Assembly: GCF_016811075.1 (NCBI RefSeq)
Contig: NZ_JAFBGL010000001.1
Location: 496,001-560,000, forward strand
Origin: Oceaniferula flava
Lineage (GTDB): Bacteria > Verrucomicrobiota > Verrucomicrobiia > Verrucomicrobiales > Akkermansiaceae
DNA length: 64,000 nt
Reading direction: 5' to 3'
Of the stretch, positions 1 to 10,601 are shown piece after piece. Position 1 is the stretch's first letter. Each line of letters starts with the position of its first letter. A program made the translations under genes and the position numbers. A model generated the notes under the pieces. It was not told where the DNA came from and made no database searches. It saw only the letters and a program-made list of their open reading frames with translations.

Positions 1-948
1 CCTCGCCTGGCAGCGTGTGGAGCCGTGGTGCAGCATCACGGTTTCGGTATTTTTCAATGCCCGGGCCTTGAAGCCGGGGATCGGGCGGGCGAGACGTTGC
101 AGGTGGATATCGACCGTATCTGTGGGAGTGCCGATATGGGGAGCGCAGAGGCTGTGGCCACGCTGTGCGCCGGTTTTCCCCGGGCCGGCAATGGGTAAAT
201 CCGGCACGTTGAGAGCGGTGCGCATGCCTGGCAGGGCGGTCTCGAGCGATTGATTGTGGTTCTGGATGTAACGAATCTTGGTCTCGAGCCCCAGCGGCTG
301 CAGCGTTAGGGAATCGCCCACATGCACCGCACCCCCACTGAGCGTGCCGGTGACCACGGTGCCAGTGCCCTTGGGGGAGAAGATGCGATCGATCGCCAAA
401 CGTGCCTTCCCCTCGGGTGGGTGCTGCGGGCAGTGGTGCAGGTTTTCTAACAAAACTTGTTGCAGAGCATCGATCCCATCGCCTGTGACCGACGAGACCG
501 GCACGATGGGAGCATCTGCGAGGGAGGTGTCCTTAAGTTCATCGCGCAGGACTTCGATGGAAAACGGCACGTCCTCGCAGAGGTCCGCCTTGGTGAGGGC
601 GATGACGATGTTTTTGATGCCGAGGTAAGAGAGGATGTGCAGATGCTCCTCGGACTGCGGCATCCAGCCATCATCGGCGGCGATGATAAAGATGGCGAGG
701 TCCAGTGCGCCGACGCCGGCCACCATGTTGTTGACGAAGTCGGCGTGGCCGGGGACATCGACAATGCCGATCTCGTAATGCGCCTCACCATCGGTCAATG
801 CCATGTGGGCAAAACCTAGCTCGATGGTGACACCGCGTGATTTTTCCTCCGGTAAACGATCGGGGTCCGAGCCGGTGAGGCACTTCACCAAGGAAGATTT
901 TCCATGATCGATATGGCCTGCGGTGCCTAAGACGAGATAGCTGCTCAT
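1..948 (-). CDS. selB: Selenocysteine-specific elongation factor SelB, N-terminal part (cut by window edge)
   Basis: Translation GTPase that delivers Sec-tRNA to UGA codons marked by a SECIS element. The 316 residues in the window open with an EF-Tu-type G domain: P-loop GHIDHGKS (residues 11-18), switch-I RGVTI (38-42), DVPGH (64-68) and TKAD (119-122). A beta-barrel domain 2 follows (RIFSPKGTGTVVTGTL). The N-terminus fits SelB rather than EF-Tu or IF2, notably the GTAGHIDHGKS stretch followed by DRLPEEKSRGVTIELGF. The frame is open to base 1, so the C-terminal winged-helix SECIS-binding domains lie outside. The start is the ATG at 946-948. It is transcribed in the same direction as the envelope operon behind it, with a gap of about 290 bp. 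Family assignment is confident. selA, selD and tRNA-Sec were not seen in the window. Confidence 0.92.
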   Translation of the reverse strand, partial: MSSYLVLGTAGHIDHGKSSLVKCLTGSDPDRLPEEKSRGVTIELGFAHMALTDGEAHYEIGIVDVPGHADFVNNMVAGVGALDLAIFIIAADDGWMPQSEEHLHILSYLGIKNIVIALTKADLCEDVPFSIEVLRDELKDTSLADAPIVPVSSVTGDGIDALQQVLLENLHHCPQHPPEGKARLAIDRIFSPKGTGTVVTGTLSGGAVHVGDSLTLQPLGLETKIRYIQNHNQSLETALPGMRTALNVPDLPIAGPGKTGAQRGHSLCAPHIGTPTDTVDIHLQRLARPIPGFKARALKNTETVMLHHGSTRCQAR

Positions 949-1242: not shown

Positions 1243-2781
1243 TTAGCGGGCTGCTTGTCTGAGTTTGTTTTGCTCTTTGTCGTAGATGTGGAAATCGATA
1301 CGACTGAAGGCGTTGAGATCGAGCGAGACTTCGCCGAATGCTTGGCTGTAGCCGCTGATTTTTCCATCTTGGAAGGACGCGAGGCGGAGGGTGACGTGGC
1401 CGCCCTCGTGGAACCACGCGCGGACGTCGCCGGCGTATTTTCGTGGTTGAGCACCGGTGTCGCCGAGACTCAGGGACTTGATTCGTTTGAGGGGAATACG
1501 GATGGGGGTGTATTTGGTCTCGATGATCATGCGTCCGTCCTGGACCTTGCCGACGGTGCCGGGGACTTCATCGCCATTTTTCAGAATGATGCGGTGCGGG
1601 GGCAGGGCGTCTTTCTCGTCGGCATCCTGTTCCTTGTCTTGCCCGGCGGGCTGCAGGTCCAGCTGCTGATTGGGCAGGCTGGTGCCGTTCCATGGGACCA
1701 CGGCGATGTTGGAAATCTCGATGGGGTATCGTTTTTCACCGACAAACGACATACCGGTGCCCAGGTTCTCTGGATCGGGTGCCTGGGACTGCAGCACGCA
1801 GACGTGCACGTTATCGATGTAAACCGTGATGGTTCCGGACTTGCGATCGATATAAATGTCAAAGTGGGCATCGGTTTTATCGCGTGGCAAATTGAGTTGT
1901 TTCCAACGTCCGCCACGCGCCACCACGCCACCACCGTTTGCTTTCCCCCGGGTGCGCAGGTAAGCGTAGGAGCGGTTGAAATTAAGATCGTAGTAGGCAT
2001 CTGGTCGACCCTCCGAGACATCGCTGGAGTAGAGGTGCAGGCGGAAGCGCATGGAGGTGTTCCAGCGGGTGTCGAAGCTGATGTGGGCCTTCTCGGTGAG
2101 GCCGATATCGCGGCCGATGGCGCCGTCCGAGGTGGATTTCAGCGAACCGCTTTCGAATTCCCATGCCTTGTTGTCATCGGCAAATGTCCACTCTTTGATG
2201 CTGTTAGGCCCGTAGTAGCTGCCGGGGCCATTGCTGATGATCTGCAGGGACTGCACCATGGAGCGTTTTAGGCTGATGATGCCACCATACCACGTTTCCA
2301 GCTTCACGCTTTCGGGCGTGAGCTCGTGGAGGCTCCCGAAGAGGGTATCGCCCCGGGTTTCGCTGAACGAGGGTTGCAGTCTGACCCGGGCGACGGTTTC
2401 GGGGCGAGGTCGGTGTTTCCAGGTATCGAGCTGCAGCGACAGGATATTCTCCACGGGAAAACCGGCCTTTTGGCGCAGGCTGTCCGAGGTGAACTCGAGG
2501 TTGCCCTCGTCATCCATGCCGTGCGGCAGGCCGCTGAGTTTATCGCCATTGGTGAGAAAAATGCGCGACTTGACCGCTGGGTCGTCGGACGCCTGTTCTG
2601 CCGCTCCCTCGTCGGTGGCTGGCACGTGGCGAGGCTTGGCTAGATTTTTACCTGCCTGCTCGATCGCCTCAAGCACCTCATCGGCGCGGACGGCCTGAGT
2701 GCCGGCACAGAGAGCCATGAGCATGCCTGATAGAGCGAGGGCGCTGAACCGTGCTGAAATGGGGTGGAGTGAATCTTTCAT
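1243..2781 (-). CDS. Secreted 'NGD'-repeat / jellyroll protein, paralogue 1
   Basis: Function unknown; 512 aa. An N-terminal signal peptide (hydrophobic LALSGMLMALCAG, likely cut after AVRA) predicts export. Two small beta-modules with a turn motif come first (FLTNGDKLSG near residue 76, then a module ending LETWYGGIISLKRS). A central 200-residue jellyroll-like region follows (WTFADDNKAWEFESGSL to YIDRKSGTITVYIDN), resembling LamG/concanavalin-type folds. Two more beta-modules follow (ILKNGDEVPGTVG; EGGHVTLRLASFQDGKISG). The same order of modules occurs in the next two upstream genes, so this is the last of a tandem paralogous triplet. The spacing of 33 bp to paralogue 2 suggests one transcript. 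The start is ATG at 2779-2781 with no clear Shine-Dalgarno. The jellyroll call is inference from the pattern of strands. Confidence 0.85.
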   Translation of the reverse strand: MKDSLHPISARFSALALSGMLMALCAGTQAVRADEVLEAIEQAGKNLAKPRHVPATDEGAAEQASDDPAVKSRIFLTNGDKLSGLPHGMDDEGNLEFTSDSLRQKAGFPVENILSLQLDTWKHRPRPETVARVRLQPSFSETRGDTLFGSLHELTPESVKLETWYGGIISLKRSMVQSLQIISNGPGSYYGPNSIKEWTFADDNKAWEFESGSLKSTSDGAIGRDIGLTEKAHISFDTRWNTSMRFRLHLYSSDVSEGRPDAYYDLNFNRSYAYLRTRGKANGGGVVARGGRWKQLNLPRDKTDAHFDIYIDRKSGTITVYIDNVHVCVLQSQAPDPENLGTGMSFVGEKRYPIEISNIAVVPWNGTSLPNQQLDLQPAGQDKEQDADEKDALPPHRIILKNGDEVPGTVGKVQDGRMIIETKYTPIRIPLKRIKSLSLGDTGAQPRKYAGDVRAWFHEGGHVTLRLASFQDGKISGYSQAFGEVSLDLNAFSRIDFHIYDKEQNKLRQAAR

Positions 2782-2814
2782 GAAGTGAGATGCGTGGTTG
2801 TGCTCGCTAAGGGC

Positions 2815-4140
2815 TTATTTGCTTTGGGCGATGCTGCGCAGGGCTTCCGGTTTCAACGTGAACTGGCCGAGGATGGGGTGGTTCGCGCTGATGCTACCAT
2901 CGTCCAAGCGCGCTTGATTGAGCTGCACGGAGCCGGATCCGTGAAGGTGGGCGGTGAAGGTGGATTTGGGATAGGGGGTGACATTTTTCGCTTTGGCGAA
3001 ATACAGACTGCTGATCCGGCGATCCGGCACCATCAGGGGTTTGGTCGCGTGTTTAACATCCAGCTGGATCATACGCCGCCCCTCGCCGCCGCTGATCGAT
3101 GCGATATGACCGGAGATTTTCTCCCCTTCGCTATCGACCAAGACATCGGTGACGGAGTCGATGATTTTGGTCTGGAACCTCGACGGTTCGCCATCGTTCC
3201 AGTCGCTCACCTTGATATTGCTCAGCAGGGCGGTGGTGCCGCGGCTGGCGCGGTTGTTGAAAATGATGTGGTTGCCGTCAGCGGTGGTGAAGGTATCGGT
3301 GCAGGTGGCGGTTTTGTGGCCATCGATATACAGCAAGATTGTTCCCTCCACGCGATTGACCCGAAGATCGATGCTGAGTTTCCTACTTTTCACATCGTGC
3401 GGTTTGAGATCGATATTGGCCAGCAGTGCGGGGTGCTGGTCCTTGACGATGCGTTTGATCTGCATGCCGGCGGTGTTGAACAGGAACTCGTAGGTGTTCT
3501 GCTTAGTCTGGGCGGCATCGGTGCTGGCGCAGAAGCGGAAGACAAAATTCGGCGTATCCTGCCAAGCGAGGTCGAAGCGGAAGCGCACGTTGTCCGGCAG
3601 GTCGAGCTCGCGAGCCAATTGGCCGATCCCCTTGCCGGTGTAGACGCCGTCCTTCAGGCGCCACTGGCCAGAGGTGCTGTCCCACTCCGAAGGCTCTTCC
3701 GTGGCGGTGTAGATCAGTCGCTCCTGGGAGAGACCGAAACGCAGAGAAGTCACCTGCTGGCGCGGCACGGTGAACTGGCCGGCATACCAGGTGGAAAATG
3801 CCACCTTGTCCTGATCCATGGAGAGCACCTTGCACGGTAAGGTATCGCCATTGGCCAAGGTGATCTGCTCTGAATGCGGCTTCGGCACGCTGCCCTCGCT
3901 GGGGAAGGTCATGCTCTCGATGGCTTCCGCGTGAATCTCCAAGGGGCTGGCGGAGACGGACGACTGGATGGTGGTGCCGTCTTTCCCCATGTGGGTGATT
4001 TTGCCCGTGAGCACATCGCCATTGGTCAGCTGGATCACATCGGCATGGGCGCCACCGACACTGGCCAGAAAGAGGCAGGCAAGTCTTGACTGCATCGTGC
4101 TGGAAAGGTGGAGAGCGGGTGAAAAAAGGCGAGAGTTCAT
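2815..4140 (-). CDS. Secreted 'NGD'-repeat / jellyroll protein, paralogue 2
   Basis: Function unknown; about 441 aa from ATG 4140. A second ATG at 4095 would give a tidier signal peptide (MQSRLACLFLASVGGAHA, then D). Two N-terminal NGD modules are clear (IQLTNGDVLTGKI and ITLANGDTLPCKV), the second ending FSTWYAGQFTVPRQQV, which matches LETWYGGIISLKRS of paralogue 1. A jellyroll-like middle (WRLKDGVYTGKGIG to GTILLYIDG) and two degenerate C-terminal modules (GEKISGHIASI; GSGSVQLNQARLDDGSISA) follow. Only about 10 bp separates it from the stop of paralogue 3, so co-transcription is very likely. An in-frame extension to 4239 exists but would overlap the upstream gene, so I rejected it. Predicted location is periplasm or cell surface. 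Confidence 0.83.
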   Translation of the reverse strand: MNSRLFSPALHLSSTMQSRLACLFLASVGGAHADVIQLTNGDVLTGKITHMGKDGTTIQSSVSASPLEIHAEAIESMTFPSEGSVPKPHSEQITLANGDTLPCKVLSMDQDKVAFSTWYAGQFTVPRQQVTSLRFGLSQERLIYTATEEPSEWDSTSGQWRLKDGVYTGKGIGQLARELDLPDNVRFRFDLAWQDTPNFVFRFCASTDAAQTKQNTYEFLFNTAGMQIKRIVKDQHPALLANIDLKPHDVKSRKLSIDLRVNRVEGTILLYIDGHKTATCTDTFTTADGNHIIFNNRASRGTTALLSNIKVSDWNDGEPSRFQTKIIDSVTDVLVDSEGEKISGHIASISGGEGRRMIQLDVKHATKPLMVPDRRISSLYFAKAKNVTPYPKSTFTAHLHGSGSVQLNQARLDDGSISANHPILGQFTLKPEALRSIAQSK

Positions 4141-4150
4141 AGTGGGGAGC

Positions 4151-5608
4151 TTAAAAATTATCATCCCAGTTATCGAGAAGACTGTTTTTATTCGAGAAAT
4201 CAATGAGGTTAATATAATGCGCATCCAGGTTGATTTCACCTAGGAGTTTGGTGAGCAGCTTGGTTTTTCCCTGTTCACCCTGCGAGGGGACCCCGGAGAT
4301 GCGGCCGTAGGGGTAGATGTAGAAATTCACCGCCTTGGGATCGAGCTCGGTTTCCGGTTTCACCTTAGTCGAGGCGAGGTGGATTTCACCCACTTCGTCC
4401 ATGGGGATGAGCATTTCATTGTCGTAGGCGCCTTGGAAGCTGACTTTGCCATCGCGGATCGACTCAAACTGCCCGGAAAAGCGGTCGATGCCATTGTTCA
4501 GCAGGATGATATCGCGTTTCTCCGACTGCATGCTGCGGGCCGAGTCCTTGAGGCCATTCCAGTGGGAAACCACCACATCGCTGACGCGGATCTCCGACTT
4601 GCCGCTGTATCGGTTTCTAAAACCGAGGTGGCTACCGGTGCCGGCGTATTCCTCGCCGAGCGACCACTTTGCTTTGAAGGCACCGTTGAGGAAAAGCATG
4701 ATATTCTTCTTATTGCGGTCCAGGCGCAGTTCGATATTGGCTTCGCTTTCGGTCGACAGACCCAAGCTGGCCTGGCTGCCTTCCAAGCGGGAGTTCTGCG
4801 GTTTGCCGTCCTTATCGAAGGTGCAGGCGTAGAGGGATGCACTGTGGCTGGAAAGCGACAGTAAATAGCCGTGGCCGATGGTGGCTGCCATTTCCGTCTG
4901 ACTGGTCACCCGGGTGTTATACATTGGTGGATTGAAATCCGCGTGCAGTGCAATGGTGGTGTAAAGGGTGCCACGCCAAGCGAGGTTGAAGGAAACCCGG
5001 CAGGTGTCCGGCATGATGTCCTCACGGCAGAGGTAGTTGTTCTGGCTCACCCCGGAATACCAGGAAGTGCCGATCAATTTCCAATCGGCCGGCGGCTCTT
5101 CATCGGCCTTCTTTTCTTTCTCTCGCTCTTTCTCGACGGCGGGGTCGATGTAGCGGTAGTTCGGCACCGTTTTCCAGCCTTCCTCATTGAGTGGACCGTA
5201 GTAGACGAGCTTGCCACCGAAGGGGGTGGGGGAAATCTTAGCGATCGCCTCGCGTGGCAGTTCCAAGCCGCCCAAGTGATCTGTTTTCACGGTCACTGTC
5301 TTTTCGTCGGCCGTGACAATGGTCCCCGGGATCACATCGCCATTGGTGAGCGTGACGCTGGATTTTTGGCCGATGGCCTTGTGCGCCTTTCCGCGGTTGA
5401 GCACCACGCGTTGCAGCTTGGTGGTGGAAAAATGGATGGGCTCAGCCGCTTCCGGGTTCTTCCAGATCAGGGTCTCGGACTGGCCGAAGGAGAGAAACTC
5501 ACCGTGTAAGGTGTCGTTGTTGGAAAAGCGCAGCAGGTCCGGCGCGGCCGGGCAGGTCTGGGTGCCCGCGAGGAGGCCGAGGGCGATGATTCGAGTCAAA
5601 GGATTCAT
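4151..5608 (-). CDS. Secreted 'NGD'-repeat / jellyroll protein, paralogue 3
   Basis: Function unknown; 485 aa. The signal peptide is MNPLTRIIALGLLAGTQTCPAA. Modules in order: LLRFSNNDTLHGEF (first module, NND instead of NGD), VTLTNGDVIPGTI, a jellyroll-like region (WKLIGTSWYSGVSQNN to NIMLFLNGAFKAKWSL), then ILLNNGIDRFSGQF and a last degenerate module. A stretch with many E and K lies before the jellyroll. The start ATG (5606-5608) overlaps the TGA of the upstream cyclase-fold gene in an ATGA arrangement, which both fixes the start and implies translational coupling. It is the member of the triplet closest to the operon promoter. The NGD turn probably marks a small beta-barrel repeat. No catalytic residues could be recognised. 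Confidence 0.84.
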   Translation of the reverse strand: MNPLTRIIALGLLAGTQTCPAAPDLLRFSNNDTLHGEFLSFGQSETLIWKNPEAAEPIHFSTTKLQRVVLNRGKAHKAIGQKSSVTLTNGDVIPGTIVTADEKTVTVKTDHLGGLELPREAIAKISPTPFGGKLVYYGPLNEEGWKTVPNYRYIDPAVEKEREKEKKADEEPPADWKLIGTSWYSGVSQNNYLCREDIMPDTCRVSFNLAWRGTLYTTIALHADFNPPMYNTRVTSQTEMAATIGHGYLLSLSSHSASLYACTFDKDGKPQNSRLEGSQASLGLSTESEANIELRLDRNKKNIMLFLNGAFKAKWSLGEEYAGTGSHLGFRNRYSGKSEIRVSDVVVSHWNGLKDSARSMQSEKRDIILLNNGIDRFSGQFESIRDGKVSFQGAYDNEMLIPMDEVGEIHLASTKVKPETELDPKAVNFYIYPYGRISGVPSQGEQGKTKLLTKLLGEINLDAHYINLIDFSNKNSLLDNWDDNF

Positions 5609-6603
5609 TTTTCGTAGATAGGAAGAAAGCGGTAGTTGAGAGCGAGTGAGAGCAGGGCACCGGCGGTGCTGAAGGCATTGCCGTGGTTGCCGGCCCACGA
5701 GCCGTCCGGCAGCTGGGTCACCGAAAGCAGGCGGATGTTATCCTTGTTCCAGGCGTTCCATAGCTCCTCGTCTGCTTGGAAAAGGGCCTGCGACATGTAG
5801 TAGCGGAAGTAGAAGGGGTAGCTATTGTCCTGGGTGCGGATATTCAGCTTGAGGAACTCGGTGGACTTCTTGTAGCCCGCCTCGTCCTTCTTCTTGGCGA
5901 GTGACCAGCAGAGCGAGCCGATGGCGGTGAGAGTAAGGCGACCTCCCCCCTTGCTGGTGTAGCCGTAGGCACCATTCGAGCTGCGGCAGGTGCGCATGTA
6001 GGCCAGCCCTTTTTCAATCGCCTCGTCCGGCACCGCGACGCCTGCATTGCGTGCGGCGAGCAGGGCGACGATCTGGCAGCCGGACACGGTGGTATCGGCG
6101 TGGCGGGTGGTGGGGTCATAGCGCCAGCCGTGTTTCGGGTTCACCTTTTGAGCTTTGAGGATCAGGTCCACCGCCTTCTTCAGGGCGGGGGCGATACGTT
6201 TGTCATCGACCATGCCGTAGCACTCGGCCAGCGCGAGGGTGGCGAACCCGTGATCATACATTTGCGGCCCGATGTAGCCTTCCGAGCTTTCCTTTTGTTT
6301 CTCAAACAAGAAATTGAGCGACTTGCTGATCTTCTGCGCGTAGGGGCCGTAGTTGGGATCCTCACCGTGGGCGAGGAATGCCAGGGTGCAGAGAGCGACA
6401 ACACCTGGCCGAGTGCCACTGCCACCGCCCCAGGATCCGGATGCGTCCTGGCTGTTCGACAGGTAGCGCAGGCCGCGGGTGTACATGGTTTCCACCTGCG
6501 CTGGGATGGTGTCGTTCTGGCGGCGCGGAAGCGACTGCGCCTGCGCGAGTTCCGGCAGCACGAGGGCTGCCAGGAGGAGAGATGAGAGAATGAATTGTTT
6601 CAT
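5605..6603 (-). CDS. Secreted squalene-cyclase / prenyltransferase-fold repeat protein
   Basis: 332 aa with a signal peptide (SSLLLAALVLPELAQAQ). The body is a chain of alpha-alpha hairpins of the terpene cyclase / prenyltransferase beta-subunit fold. Visible QW-like repeats include LSNSQDASGSWGGGSGT (about residue 50), ILKAQKVNPKHGWRYDP (about 150), RTCRSSNGAYGYTSKGGG (about 210) and VTQLPDGSWAGNHGNAFSTAGALLSL (about 300). The DxDD catalytic motif of true squalene-hopene cyclases is not visible, so a cyclase reaction is not supported. Exported proteins of this fold are common in Verrucomicrobiota and Planctomycetota, where their role is not established. It sits between the Gly/Gln-rich protein and the NGD triplet, and its stop overlaps the start of paralogue 3 (ATGA). 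Confidence 0.88.
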   Translation of the reverse strand: MKQFILSSLLLAALVLPELAQAQSLPRRQNDTIPAQVETMYTRGLRYLSNSQDASGSWGGGSGTRPGVVALCTLAFLAHGEDPNYGPYAQKISKSLNFLFEKQKESSEGYIGPQMYDHGFATLALAECYGMVDDKRIAPALKKAVDLILKAQKVNPKHGWRYDPTTRHADTTVSGCQIVALLAARNAGVAVPDEAIEKGLAYMRTCRSSNGAYGYTSKGGGRLTLTAIGSLCWSLAKKKDEAGYKKSTEFLKLNIRTQDNSYPFYFRYYMSQALFQADEELWNAWNKDNIRLLSVTQLPDGSWAGNHGNAFSTAGALLSLALNYRFLPIYEK

Positions 6604-6660
6604 GGAACGTAAGTTCGGGGATCTCGCTATCGGGGAGACGGCGTGAGGACTGGGGATGGA

Positions 6661-7356
6661 TTATCGTTGGGTGGACTTCTTCGCGGCGCCGCGGTTATAA
6701 GCGTCCATAGCTTTTTGAAATTCCCGGGGCAGGGAGCTGCCGGCATTTCCTGAATTTTTCGGCACGCGGCGTTCGCCACCCTCGGCGGTGTTGTCCGGGT
6801 CGCCGGGTTTGCCACCGCCACCACCGGAGCCTTTGCCTCCGCCGCCGGCACCTTCGCCTTGCCCCTCACCTTCGCCAGGTTTTTTCCCCTGACCGGGTTG
6901 CTGGCCTTCGCCGACGTCTTTACCGCCTTCCATCATGTTCTGCAGCATTTCCATCATCCCTTGGGACTGTGGCTGACCTTGTCCTTCGCCTGCTTGCTGC
7001 TGTTGTTTTTTGGCGGCTTCAAAAATTTTCTCAATGACCTCGGTCTGGGTGGCGATGGTGGCGCCGCCGGTGTCCTTCAGCTCGAGCTGGTCGATGGCAT
7101 CGGCCATGATGGTTTCCACCTCGCGCAGGAGATCGATCACCTTGGGGTTGGTCTGTTCATCGATGAGGTCCTGCACATCGGCGGAGAGGTCGTCCTGCTC
7201 GTTGGCGAGCTTTTTCGAGCCGTTGCTGTGCTTGGCCATGCCTTCGGCGAGCGCCTCTTCGGTCGGTTTTTCCGGAGCCTTCTCGCTGGCGGGAGCGGCG
7301 ATCAGTGTCGGCACCACGAGGGCGGTGCAGAGGAGTGAGATGCGGGTCATTTTCAT
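6661..7356 (-). CDS. Secreted Gly/Gln-rich protein, partner of the DUF4175-like protein
   Basis: 231 aa, function unknown. The signal peptide is MKMTRISLLCTALVVPTLIAAPA. The mature N-terminal half is helical and acidic (LANEQDDLSADVQDLIDEQTN, then LLREVETIMADAIDQL). A well-defined block DTGGATIATQTEVIEKIFEAAK (about residues 97-118) follows, then a low-complexity QQQ/GEGQG/GGGG region and a short conserved-looking tail (SSLPREFQKAMDAYNRG). I recall comparable proteins beside DUF4175-like genes in Verrucomicrobiota and Planctomycetota, but could not check. It lies about 38 bp after the 932-aa membrane protein and before the cyclase-fold gene, in one direction. An in-frame ATG two codons downstream is an equally possible start. 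Confidence 0.82.
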   Translation of the reverse strand: MKMTRISLLCTALVVPTLIAAPASEKAPEKPTEEALAEGMAKHSNGSKKLANEQDDLSADVQDLIDEQTNPKVIDLLREVETIMADAIDQLELKDTGGATIATQTEVIEKIFEAAKKQQQQAGEGQGQPQSQGMMEMLQNMMEGGKDVGEGQQPGQGKKPGEGEGQGEGAGGGGKGSGGGGGKPGDPDNTAEGGERRVPKNSGNAGSSLPREFQKAMDAYNRGAAKKSTQR

Positions 7357-7394
7357 GAGGTCAAATGGGGATCAGAGCTGGGTGACGGGAGGGG

Positions 7395-10193
7395 TTAGCC
7401 GGCGGGAACAACGTCGGACGGGCGGGTGTCGGGTCGGGCTGCCTTCGGCAAAGCGGGGTGAGCGATGTCGGGGTTCAGGCTGCGGCGGAGATTTTCCAGG
7501 GCGCGGGTGCGGGAGCGGATGTCTTGCTCTTTCTGGATCATTCGCATGACCTTGAGCATGAACTCGAAATCTTTATCCTCGCTTTGCTGCTGGCCACCGC
7601 CGCCCTCACCGCCGCCGCCGGCACCACCTTGGTCACCCTCGAGCTGTTTGGCCCACTTTCTGAGCTGCTCGGCCCATTGTTTCGATTGGGTAATGGCGGC
7701 GAAAGAAAGGTTGGCGGAAACGCGGGAGGAGAGGATTTCCATCGCCTCGTCGATGCGGGAGTTCTTCATGGCTTCCACCAATTGCTTGTGCTCCTCTTTT
7801 TGGGTGCGGGCGTAGTAGTGGGCGAGATCCTCCTGGATCCAGCGCACGTCCGAAGCGGTCTGGCGCTGCTGATCGGAGGCTCCTTTGATGGTGCGCTGCT
7901 CCACAGGATCGAGCTCTTCGAACGAGCTGCCGATGACCTTGTCGATGGCATCGATGAAGGCGGAGGCGATACCGTCCTGCTCGTTGGCGGCCCTTTTGAG
8001 TCGATTGACAAAGGTGCTGGCCTCAAAGTTCTGGTTGGCCTCATTGGCGTCCTTGAGTGCCTGCTTCATCTTCTCGAGAGCCTTTTTCTGCTCCTCGACG
8101 GCCTTTTTCATGTCCTCCTTGGATTTCTCCTCGGTGTTGCGCTGGCTTTGGGCGTCTTGGAGTTTTTTCTCCACCTTGGGCAGATCCTCCTGGGAAAGTT
8201 CACGCATCGACTGCAGTGCCTTGGACATCTTTTTCAGCGCGTCCTTATCGATCTCGCCATTGCGCACCGCGTCTTTGAACAGCTCCTCCATTTTCTTGGT
8301 GAGTTCCTGCATGCGTTCCTTGTTGGCTCGCTCTGCGTCCTGCTGCTTCTGCAGTTTTTTCAAGTTCTCCTCGGACTGCAGGTCCTTGCCGTCCTTGCGC
8401 TCGAGGCGCTGGTTTTCATCGTTGAGGTTCTGCTCCTTGCGGGCGATGTCTTCGAGCTCGCCGATGGCGCGGTCGAACTCATTTTTCAGCACCTGCGCAT
8501 GTTCGTCACGGGTGAGAATGTAGAGCACGACTGGCTCGGAGTAAACCCGACCCCGTCCCGGTTTATAATCCTCGGTCCACGATCTCAGGGTCAGCTTCTG
8601 TGGGGCGATTTCGAGGTTGGCCGGGGAGAAGGCAAAGGGCTGGCTGATGGTGGTGCGGGAGGGAGAGCCTTGTTCCAGAGTCAGCTCGCCCTTGGCCGGC
8701 GTGCCACCGGTGGGCTTGGTGAACTCTCCCTGCCAGGAGATGCCGCAGGCTTTCAGACCGTAGTCGTCCTCGGCGAGCACTTCAAAATCGATGGTTTCCT
8801 CGGCCAGCATGATGTGCTGGCGCTCGATCCCCTGAATGTAGGTCGACGGCAACTGGTCCTGAGCCGTCTCCAGGCGCAGTTTTACCGGCTTGTCGGCCTT
8901 CAATCCATAAATATCGGTCCACTGCATGGGGATGACCAGCGACCGGCGGCCCATGGTGATGGGGGCGGTGGTCATCTGGCGGCTGTTGAGTTTCAGCGCA
9001 ATATCACGGGGTGGAATTTCTTTTTCCACTTCCACAATGGCGTCATTCTTGGGCTCGGTGGATGGTGGGGTCGGATGAGCTCCGCCAAATGGAGAACCGG
9101 CATCTGCCGCTCCAGCGTCAGGCTGGGGCAGTGATTCGGACGGCAGGGTGATGACCTGGGCACTGCCGGATGAAAGGGCCCGACTAGCCACCGCCTGGAT
9201 GGTCACCTCGCTGCCCTCGAGCACGGAGAGGAAGCCTGAGCGGAGGTCGGCGCTGATGTCCTCGCGTTCCAAGTAGGCCGGCAACTTCACTGCTGCGCGC
9301 AGGTTTTCAACGGCTGGACGGATGACGGGTTCGACCGGAAGGCTGGCGCGCGCGTCATCGGCCTCGATGTGGAGGTGGTCGGCTGCGCGTTGGGCGGGGA
9401 AAACGAAGGCGTATGCGCCATCCACCAACGAGGCCTCCACCCATTCTCCGTTGCCGTAGCGGGCGCGGGCGGTTTCAGGGCTGCGATTGGTGTCTGCGCT
9501 CAGTGGCACGCTGAGGGTGAAAGTTTCCCCGTAAGGAACGTGGTGGGGTGTGCTGATCCCGGAGAGGTCGAGCTGGGTGAAGGTGAAACGCTCCGTGTTG
9601 GCCAGCGGCATCAGCCAGCGCTTCAGCGCGTTGACACCTGCCTGTGGGGCGGTGATCAGTGCGGCGACCATGAGCAAGAAGAGCACCATGACCACAAGCG
9701 ACCACTTGCGGTGGCGGGCGGCAGGCAGGGCCTCCAAAAGATCTCGACCCGCGGCATCCGCGGCAACCGTGCGCATGGCAGCGGCGCGCAGGGCGGGGGA
9801 CAGGCTGTCTTTTCCTTCCACCTGATCCTGCAGTTCGACGGCACCGAGCAATCGATCGCCAAGTCTCGGATAGCGGCGGGCAATGAGCTTGGCCAGCTGG
9901 TTTTCACGACGGTGGCCGTAGACCCAGCGGCGAATCCAGTAGGGGGCGAAAAGGGCAAAAAGGGAAACGCCGACCAGTAAAATCACCAAACGCACCATGT
10001 TCGGCGTCTCGAACAGGCGATCGAGCCCAAACACCAGGAGGAAGGAGAAGAGCAGACCGAAAAAACCCGCCAGCACGGCCTCGGCAATCTTGATTTGCCA
10101 CAGCCGCTTTTTAAACCGCTCAAGCTGGTTTTGCAGTCCTTGCGGAATGGGTGCTTGGTGCGGTGGCTGCGATGAGGGTAATGGATCGGACAT
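7395..10193 (-). CDS. Large membrane-anchored coiled-coil protein (DUF4175-like)
   Basis: 932 aa. Two transmembrane segments lie near residues 37-57 and 66-88, and a third near 167-186 (VVMVLFLLMVAALI). They enclose a short cytoplasmic loop with ARRYPRLGDRLLGAVEL. A large beta-rich extracytoplasmic region (about 190-540) comes next. A long Lys/Glu/Gln-rich coiled coil (about 550-720) follows, and the C-terminal helical region contains a GGAGGGGEGGGG linker. The arrangement resembles DUF4175 / TIGR02302-type proteins, whose function is unknown. It is the first gene of the operon reading down to 1243. The similarity is recalled, not searched. The start ATG is at 10191-10193. A 558-codon open frame on the opposite strand is a GC-bias shadow. 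Confidence 0.88.
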   Translation of the reverse strand: MSDPLPSSQPPHQAPIPQGLQNQLERFKKRLWQIKIAEAVLAGFFGLLFSFLLVFGLDRLFETPNMVRLVILLVGVSLFALFAPYWIRRWVYGHRRENQLAKLIARRYPRLGDRLLGAVELQDQVEGKDSLSPALRAAAMRTVAADAAGRDLLEALPAARHRKWSLVVMVLFLLMVAALITAPQAGVNALKRWLMPLANTERFTFTQLDLSGISTPHHVPYGETFTLSVPLSADTNRSPETARARYGNGEWVEASLVDGAYAFVFPAQRAADHLHIEADDARASLPVEPVIRPAVENLRAAVKLPAYLEREDISADLRSGFLSVLEGSEVTIQAVASRALSSGSAQVITLPSESLPQPDAGAADAGSPFGGAHPTPPSTEPKNDAIVEVEKEIPPRDIALKLNSRQMTTAPITMGRRSLVIPMQWTDIYGLKADKPVKLRLETAQDQLPSTYIQGIERQHIMLAEETIDFEVLAEDDYGLKACGISWQGEFTKPTGGTPAKGELTLEQGSPSRTTISQPFAFSPANLEIAPQKLTLRSWTEDYKPGRGRVYSEPVVLYILTRDEHAQVLKNEFDRAIGELEDIARKEQNLNDENQRLERKDGKDLQSEENLKKLQKQQDAERANKERMQELTKKMEELFKDAVRNGEIDKDALKKMSKALQSMRELSQEDLPKVEKKLQDAQSQRNTEEKSKEDMKKAVEEQKKALEKMKQALKDANEANQNFEASTFVNRLKRAANEQDGIASAFIDAIDKVIGSSFEELDPVEQRTIKGASDQQRQTASDVRWIQEDLAHYYARTQKEEHKQLVEAMKNSRIDEAMEILSSRVSANLSFAAITQSKQWAEQLRKWAKQLEGDQGGAGGGGEGGGGQQQSEDKDFEFMLKVMRMIQKEQDIRSRTRALENLRRSLNPDIAHPALPKAARPDTRPSDVVPAG

Positions 10194-10601
10194 GATAGGA
10201 GGAGATGGCTGATTCTCGGACTTAAGCTATGGATACTGTGTGCGATGCGGTAGGTGGATGCAATGACTATTCACCGTGGGCCATGGAGTTGGATGACCCA
10301 AGGGCGGGCAGCCTCGGGGGAATTGACACAGCAGTCCTAGACGAGCTTTCCATGGTTTACGGTCTGTTCCCTACGGATATCTCATAAATGTAACGCCGTG
10401 GAGAGGGATTTTTTTGATAAAAGATGTCTTATTTCTCCGAGGGATGCAGCAGGGATGGTGCCAATCTGGAATCGGGAGGAGCAGAGGGGGGAATGGGTGG
10501 GGCGGTATATGGGCTTGCATATTATGGTGTCTCGACTATGCCGTGGCTGACTTTTGCGTGATTTGAAAACAGAGCCTGCATGGCGTGAGGAAGACCTCGG
10601 A
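10194..10601. other. Divergent intergenic region upstream of the envelope operon
   Basis: About 400 bp between two divergent genes, so promoters for both should be here. I saw no confident -35/-10 pair. A TTGACA at about 10323 on the plus strand has no good -10 box 16-18 bp downstream. An AT-rich stretch lies near 10408-10436, and a TATTAT near 10519 could be a -10 element for the cystathionine synthase gene. No open frame on either strand looks coding, and no RNA structure was recognised. Confidence 0.4.

Follow-up and report, generated by a model that had tools for sequence, protein, structure and literature searches.

A six-gene envelope operon of Oceaniferula flava as the putative downstream half of a MoxR-vWA operon conserved across Verrucomicrobiota

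Six co-directional genes near one end of the window (the whole 64,000-nucleotide stretch of Oceaniferula flava contig C1 that was analysed) can be read, from comparisons of sequence and gene order, as the downstream half of an operon for a MoxR-vWA system, split in the Akkermansiaceae lineage. That the set belongs to a MoxR-vWA system is highly likely, and it probably represents the part of a Bat-like MoxR/von Willebrand machine that lies on the envelope side; such a machine would be expected to assemble, mature or maintain a component of the envelope.

The initial annotation had described a co-directional six-gene set with short gaps, and both its coordinates and its descriptions hold: all six ORFs lie on the minus strand, running from position 10193 to position 1243 of the window, and every gap measures 57 bp or less. 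The features of the locus are the following:

ORF6, 7395..10193, minus strand: 932-aa inner-membrane protein
ORF5, 6661..7356, minus strand: secreted Gly/Gln-rich protein, the C-terminal domain of ORF6 split off
ORF4, 5605..6603, minus strand: secreted alpha/alpha-toroid, squalene-cyclase/prenyltransferase-like
ORF3, 4151..5608, minus strand: secreted NGD small-barrel/jellyroll protein, paralogue 1
ORF2, 2815..4140, minus strand: secreted NGD small-barrel/jellyroll protein, paralogue 2
ORF1, 1243..2781, minus strand: secreted NGD protein with small barrels and a jellyroll (structure model)
Divergent intergenic region, 10194..10553, no strand assigned: presumed site of the operon promoter

In the order of transcription, ORF6 and ORF5 are separated by 38 bp, ORF5 and ORF4 by 57 bp, and ORF2 and ORF1 by 33 bp; the ATGA stop/start overlap that had been noticed in one pair is seen at the ORF4/ORF3 junction ('aaaATGAat' at 5608-5605). 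The start of ORF3 was corrected to 5608, instead of the GTG at 5698, and taking the signal-peptide ATG at 4140 as the start of ORF2 gives a gap of about 10 bp between ORF3 and ORF2. The upstream neighbour, starting at 10554 on the plus strand, is divergent; no consensus sigma-70 site was found in 10194..10553, and a promoter/terminator scan scored at or near chance level. Downstream, the next gene is selB (1-948, minus strand), after a gap of 294 bp. This gene, coding for the selenocysteine elongation factor, lies beyond the operon and suggests selenoprotein use in the O. flava genome.

The six-gene block is not a chance arrangement, since the same order recurs across the family: same-family loci keep ORF6-ORF5-ORF4-ORF3-ORF2-ORF1 and differ in their flanking genes, with two NGD genes in place of three in the two Akkermansia loci that were read. 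Homologues of ORF6 were detected in 141 of the 190 genomes of the order Verrucomicrobiales, representing 36 of 43 genera (E<=1e-5), and strong profile matches (E<1e-99) are present in further families, belonging to other classes of Verrucomicrobiota. A gene order confined to close relatives had been named at the outset as evidence against a conserved system; the order proved to be conserved into these other classes. There, BatA and BatB genes are found directly 5' of ORF6 in 15 of 17 loci, in seven families (L202-L217, L221), the two loci that lack the BatB-ORF6 adjacency (L210 and L216) both being on contigs shorter than 20 kb. The linked loci mostly display the full order MoxR-DUF58-BatA-BatB-ORF6-ORF4-NGD(1-4); many of the neighbouring genes almost abut or overlap. 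Within the order Verrucomicrobiales, the linkage is present in 11 of the 17 loci of families f2, f3 and f4, with L091 in divergent orientation. From this linkage in other classes and other families we therefore take the operon to be the second half of a once contiguous MoxR-vWA operon, for which the order MoxR-DUF58-BatA-BatB-ORF6 (with ORF5 as its C-terminus)-ORF4-NGD(1-4) is rather likely to be ancestral. Contiguity with MoxR-DUF58-BatA-BatB is absent in O. flava and, generally, in Akkermansiaceae and in family f6.

Two variations on this layout were observed. In a genome of the genus Akkermansia (G086; L218/L219), ORF6 is a fused protein of 1,068 aa and BatA/BatB lie only about 16 kb away; no MoxR or DUF58 gene adjoining BatA was found in this genome, the arrangement of which is possibly an intermediate of the operon split. 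Extra genes encoding secreted proteins of 280-853 aa are inserted between ORF6 and ORF4 in L087, L088, L093, L095, L097, L098, L100 and L102, with three such genes in L093.

The MoxR-DUF58-BatA-BatB half of O. flava was located on contig C10, at about 120.2-126.5 kb (L105), by reading around each MoxR gene and then scoring the candidates with HMMs built on the operon-linked genes. With these HMMs, the C10 genes score 579 (MoxR), 388 (DUF58), 535 (BatA) and 858 bits (BatB), against 361, 165, 57 and 138 bits, respectively, for the other complete MoxR-DUF58-BatA-BatB operon of the genome, a paralogue at 155 kb of contig C1. The MoxR tree likewise places the C10 copy inside the operon-linked clade (97/99), beside relatives from the order (97/95), and the C1 paralogue outside it. 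Pfam matches in the C10 half are AAA_3 (PF07726, 213 bits), DUF58 (PF01882, 148 bits) and BatA (PF07584, 68.5 bits). The Walker A and B motifs of its MoxR (GVPGLAKT and ADEINRA) are intact, as are the MIDAS motifs (D-x-S-x-S) of DUF58 (DASGS) and of BatA/BatB (DRSAS and DASRS); BatA and BatB are each endowed with three TM helices, two N-terminal and one C-terminal. BatB is followed by a sulfatase-like gene instead of an ORF6 homologue. Globally, the 3.95-Mb genome encodes eight MoxR genes (on C1, C2, C7, C9, C10 and C14), most of them in divergent subfamilies, and the second operon, at C1:155.8-165.3 kb (L004:3755-13301), reads MoxR-DUF58-BatA-vWA-coiled coil-DUF4159.

The two halves are nevertheless unlinked in O. 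flava, which counts against a joint machine, and we examined their co-occurrence in the 190 genomes of the order. Both halves are present in 124 genomes and neither in 57, whereas nine are discordant, seven having ORF6 only (several of these being partial matches or fragmented assemblies) and two BatB only, at thresholds that were set after the score gap had been seen (E<1e-25 for ORF6, E<1e-80 for C10-type BatB). In Akkermansia (genus g2), 14 genomes possess both halves, 12 neither, and none is discordant. This split was rejected as a case of many independent co-losses, the genomes without the halves forming one clade (99/100) in the gene tree (17 of 30 sequences); judging from this tree, the co-absence is probably a single joint loss. 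A Fisher test on the co-occurrence overstates independence, because elsewhere much of the co-loss is the loss of one linked locus; and because the Akkermansia co-loss is probably one event, the primary support for the association of the halves is linkage, followed by their joint retention once they had separated.

With the operon physically apart from MoxR in Akkermansiaceae and with secreted lectin-like jellyroll proteins among its products, one could also envisage a stand-alone exported complex or glycan-binding apparatus, the MoxR linkage seen elsewhere reflecting general envelope co-regulation only. Near-invariant linkage in the other classes, the fact that genomes retain the two halves jointly, and searches of Pfam and NCBIfam in which no catalytic carbohydrate-active domain was found make such an apparatus distinctly unlikely. 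The single exported complex of the initial annotation thus survives as a conserved unit of an anchor and secreted partners, but not as a stand-alone system of six components, given the MoxR-DUF58-BatA-BatB linkage elsewhere; and the statement that none of its members has a known job still applies to the six genes themselves, the set as a whole now having a recognisable partner machine. A defence or conflict system built on MoxR and vWA proteins was also entertained, such systems being reported to include MoxR-vWA modules (PMC7159879, PMC8195603), but it is very improbable in view of a phylum-wide distribution with conserved order and of the absence of a detectable effector domain. It was rejected, none of the ten proteins being matched by PADLOC.

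The large protein ORF6 suits the part of membrane anchor that had been assigned to it, in that three TM helices are predicted at residues 39-57, 69-87 and 164-182. In its structure model (pLDDT 82), tandem Ig-like beta domains (about 217-560) stand between the TM part and a long helical region (562-906). An HMM of ORF5 hits the last ~190 aa of every long ORF6 protein that was tested from other families and classes, and likewise the C-terminus of one Akkermansia ORF6 (best E 3.5e-48). Judged by these profile matches, the Gly/Gln-rich ORF5, although secreted as first described, is to be regarded not as a separate component but as the C-terminal domain of ORF6, detached through domain fission. 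As ORF5 possesses its own signal peptide in O. flava, the C-terminus of ORF6 is independently placed in the periplasm.

ORF5 carries a conserved terminal motif, LPREFQKAMDAYN. The corresponding pattern (hydrophobic-P-x(1,2)-aromatic-x3-hydrophobic-x2-F/Y/N, among the last residues) occurs in 52 of 62 ORF6/ORF5 tails, several of the misses being gene fragments, and in 7 of 837 other ORFs, a contrast that is descriptive, the pattern having been written after the tails were viewed. The motif is also present in the coiled-coil protein of the paralogous C1:155-kb operon. In L063, L066 and L080, ORF5 was read as two pieces, with the break in or near the Gly/Gln-rich stretch, which may be a sequencing error or a real break. 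A fold search with the whole ORF6 model retrieved generic Ig-type matches only. The layout of DUF4175 proteins, which we take to comprise a TM N-terminus, beta domains, a coiled coil and a Gly/Gln-rich end, resembles that of ORF6 and served as a lead only; assignment of ORF6 to DUF4175 was rejected, PF13779 having no match at the ORF6 locus or in 20 ORF6 homologues.

The cyclase-fold secreted protein of the initial annotation is recognizable in ORF4, which exceeds the Pfam cut-offs of both SQHop_cyclase_C (28.7 bits) and DUF6288 (29.8 bits), matches that it has in common with squalene/hopene cyclase and prenyltransferase toroids; the protein ends in a conserved NYRFLPIYE, as its alignment shows. 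Compared with squalene/hopene cyclases, however, ORF4 scores far below the equivalogs (22.6 bits for TIGR01507, against a cut-off of 431) and, at 332 aa, consists of one secreted half-size domain, as opposed to the full-length two-domain enzyme. ORF4 is probably not an enzyme of the squalene/hopene cyclase or prenyltransferase type.

The only matches of ORF2 in its own genome are ORF1 and ORF3, at 23-25% identity, in agreement with the three tandem NGD/jellyroll paralogues initially proposed; ORF1-3 are paralogues of one another, of a kind found only at this locus in the genome. Elsewhere, the three genes correspond to one to four separate genes or to one fused gene. The model of ORF1 (pLDDT 83) consists of two small five-stranded barrels, a jellyroll, and then two more small barrels. 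At the level of the fold only, its jellyroll resembles CBM66 and a putative glycosyl hydrolase (TM-score about 0.2-0.3 over the query); these are generic lectin-like jellyrolls, from which no function, including any relation to toxins, was drawn. Neither was a family name adopted for the NGD proteins, their NCBIfam matches (LB_137 and LA_0442 N-terminal) being weak and far below cut-off, and PHROGs returned nothing useful.

In families f2-f4 the NGD counterpart is one fused protein of ~1,100 aa, and the tails that were read end in a TlpA/ResA-like thioredoxin domain, which in L087 matches AhpC-TSA (74 bits) and Redoxin (67 bits) in Pfam:

Fused NGD protein with thioredoxin domain, loci L086-L091, L093-L095, L097-L100 and L102: C-terminal WCGPC or WCAPC

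This fusion speaks for a periplasmic location and gives the sole clue to chemistry. It also raises the question of a periplasmic redox/aerotolerance system, in which the MoxR/vWA machine and an NGD scaffold would serve thiol-disulfide chemistry carried out on proteins of the envelope; the thioredoxin domain would then be a subunit that is fused in some families and made as a protein of its own in others. The Bat genes, indeed, owe their name to aerotolerance, and a reducing-periplasm hypothesis is on record (PMC5700661). A redox role is nonetheless unlikely for the set: the NGD C-termini read from Akkermansiaceae and other classes are devoid of a thioredoxin domain, and deletion of all bat genes in Leptospira biflexa produced no growth, morphology or oxidative phenotype (PMC3557215).

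The reading that we prefer, an undescribed trans-envelope, ATP-driven MoxR-vWA machine distributed throughout Verrucomicrobiota, including Akkermansia, which would assemble or maintain an envelope structure with the toroid and lectin-like barrels at its periplasmic/outer end, stands at about even odds in this full form. MoxR hexamers and the cytoplasmic vWA protein DUF58 would hydrolyse ATP in the cytoplasm, and BatA/BatB would pass the resulting change through the membrane, their vWA/MIDAS domains facing the periplasm, as does that of the BatA-like BB0173 of Borrelia (PMC5700661), the three TM helices of which follow the same layout as those of C10 BatA and BatB. BatA/BatB would then engage the strut formed by ORF6, which would be anchored in the membrane and made of Ig-like and coiled-coil domains; this contact would possibly run via the conserved C-terminal motif now carried by ORF5. 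The toroid of ORF4, together with the small barrels and lectin-like jellyroll of the NGD proteins, would form an outward end that holds a substrate, or a cell-wall or outer-membrane polymer. Every contact in this chain (MoxR/DUF58 - BatA/BatB - ORF6/ORF5 - ORF4/NGD) is predicted from topology and gene order, and both the substrate and the biological role of the machine are putative. MoxR systems are reported to act in a chaperone-like manner in the maturation of specific protein complexes, and membrane integrity and cell morphology in R. leguminosarum to depend on RL3499 (PMC3893208); as with other MoxR systems, the likely outcome would be an envelope component assembled, matured or maintained. 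Given the L. biflexa deletion without phenotype, homology to Bat proteins does not by itself imply such a role in the envelope, and we put forward envelope assembly or maintenance as the biological role only tentatively.

Envelope systems encoded by MoxR-vWA operons are common and for the most part uncharacterised, with few periplasmic partners and substrates identified. For these systems the present set provides a parts list that is fixed across a whole phylum; the domain fission fixes the membrane side of the ORF6 C-terminus, the conserved terminal motif offers a target for mutation, and the thioredoxin fusion hints at the chemistry. Function is directly testable, since the set is present in Akkermansia and since genetics are available for Verrucomicrobium spinosum, in which mutations can be targeted and for which a saturated transposon library has been made (PMC12283558).

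No description of the gene set was found in searches confined to open-access papers. A close relative in the same genome, the C1:155-165 kb operon, begins with the same four types of gene and also encodes a TM/coiled-coil protein that bears this C-terminal motif, but constitutes a distinct subfamily, with a DUF4159 gene where the ORF6/ORF5 set has its toroid and NGD genes. The operon RL3499-RL3502 (cmdA-D) of R. leguminosarum is likewise MoxR-led and linked to membrane integrity and cell shape; the likeness lies in its published description, and the consulted parts of the two reports mention no toroid or NGD proteins (PMC3893208, PMC5700661). The Bat operon of Bacteroides, Leptospira and Borrelia also encodes a MoxR AAA ATPase, DUF58, a BatA N-terminal domain (PF07584) and membrane proteins of the vWA/MIDAS kind in which two TM helices lie at the N-terminus and one at the C-terminus, as in the C10 half. 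BatD, BatC and BatE are not among the Pfam matches of the seven genes of L211, the one seven-gene locus considered in this respect. In contrast to the Bat operon, no BatD or TPR protein is seen in the operon described here; ORF6, the toroid and the NGD proteins stand in that place, and in O. flava the set is distributed over two loci.
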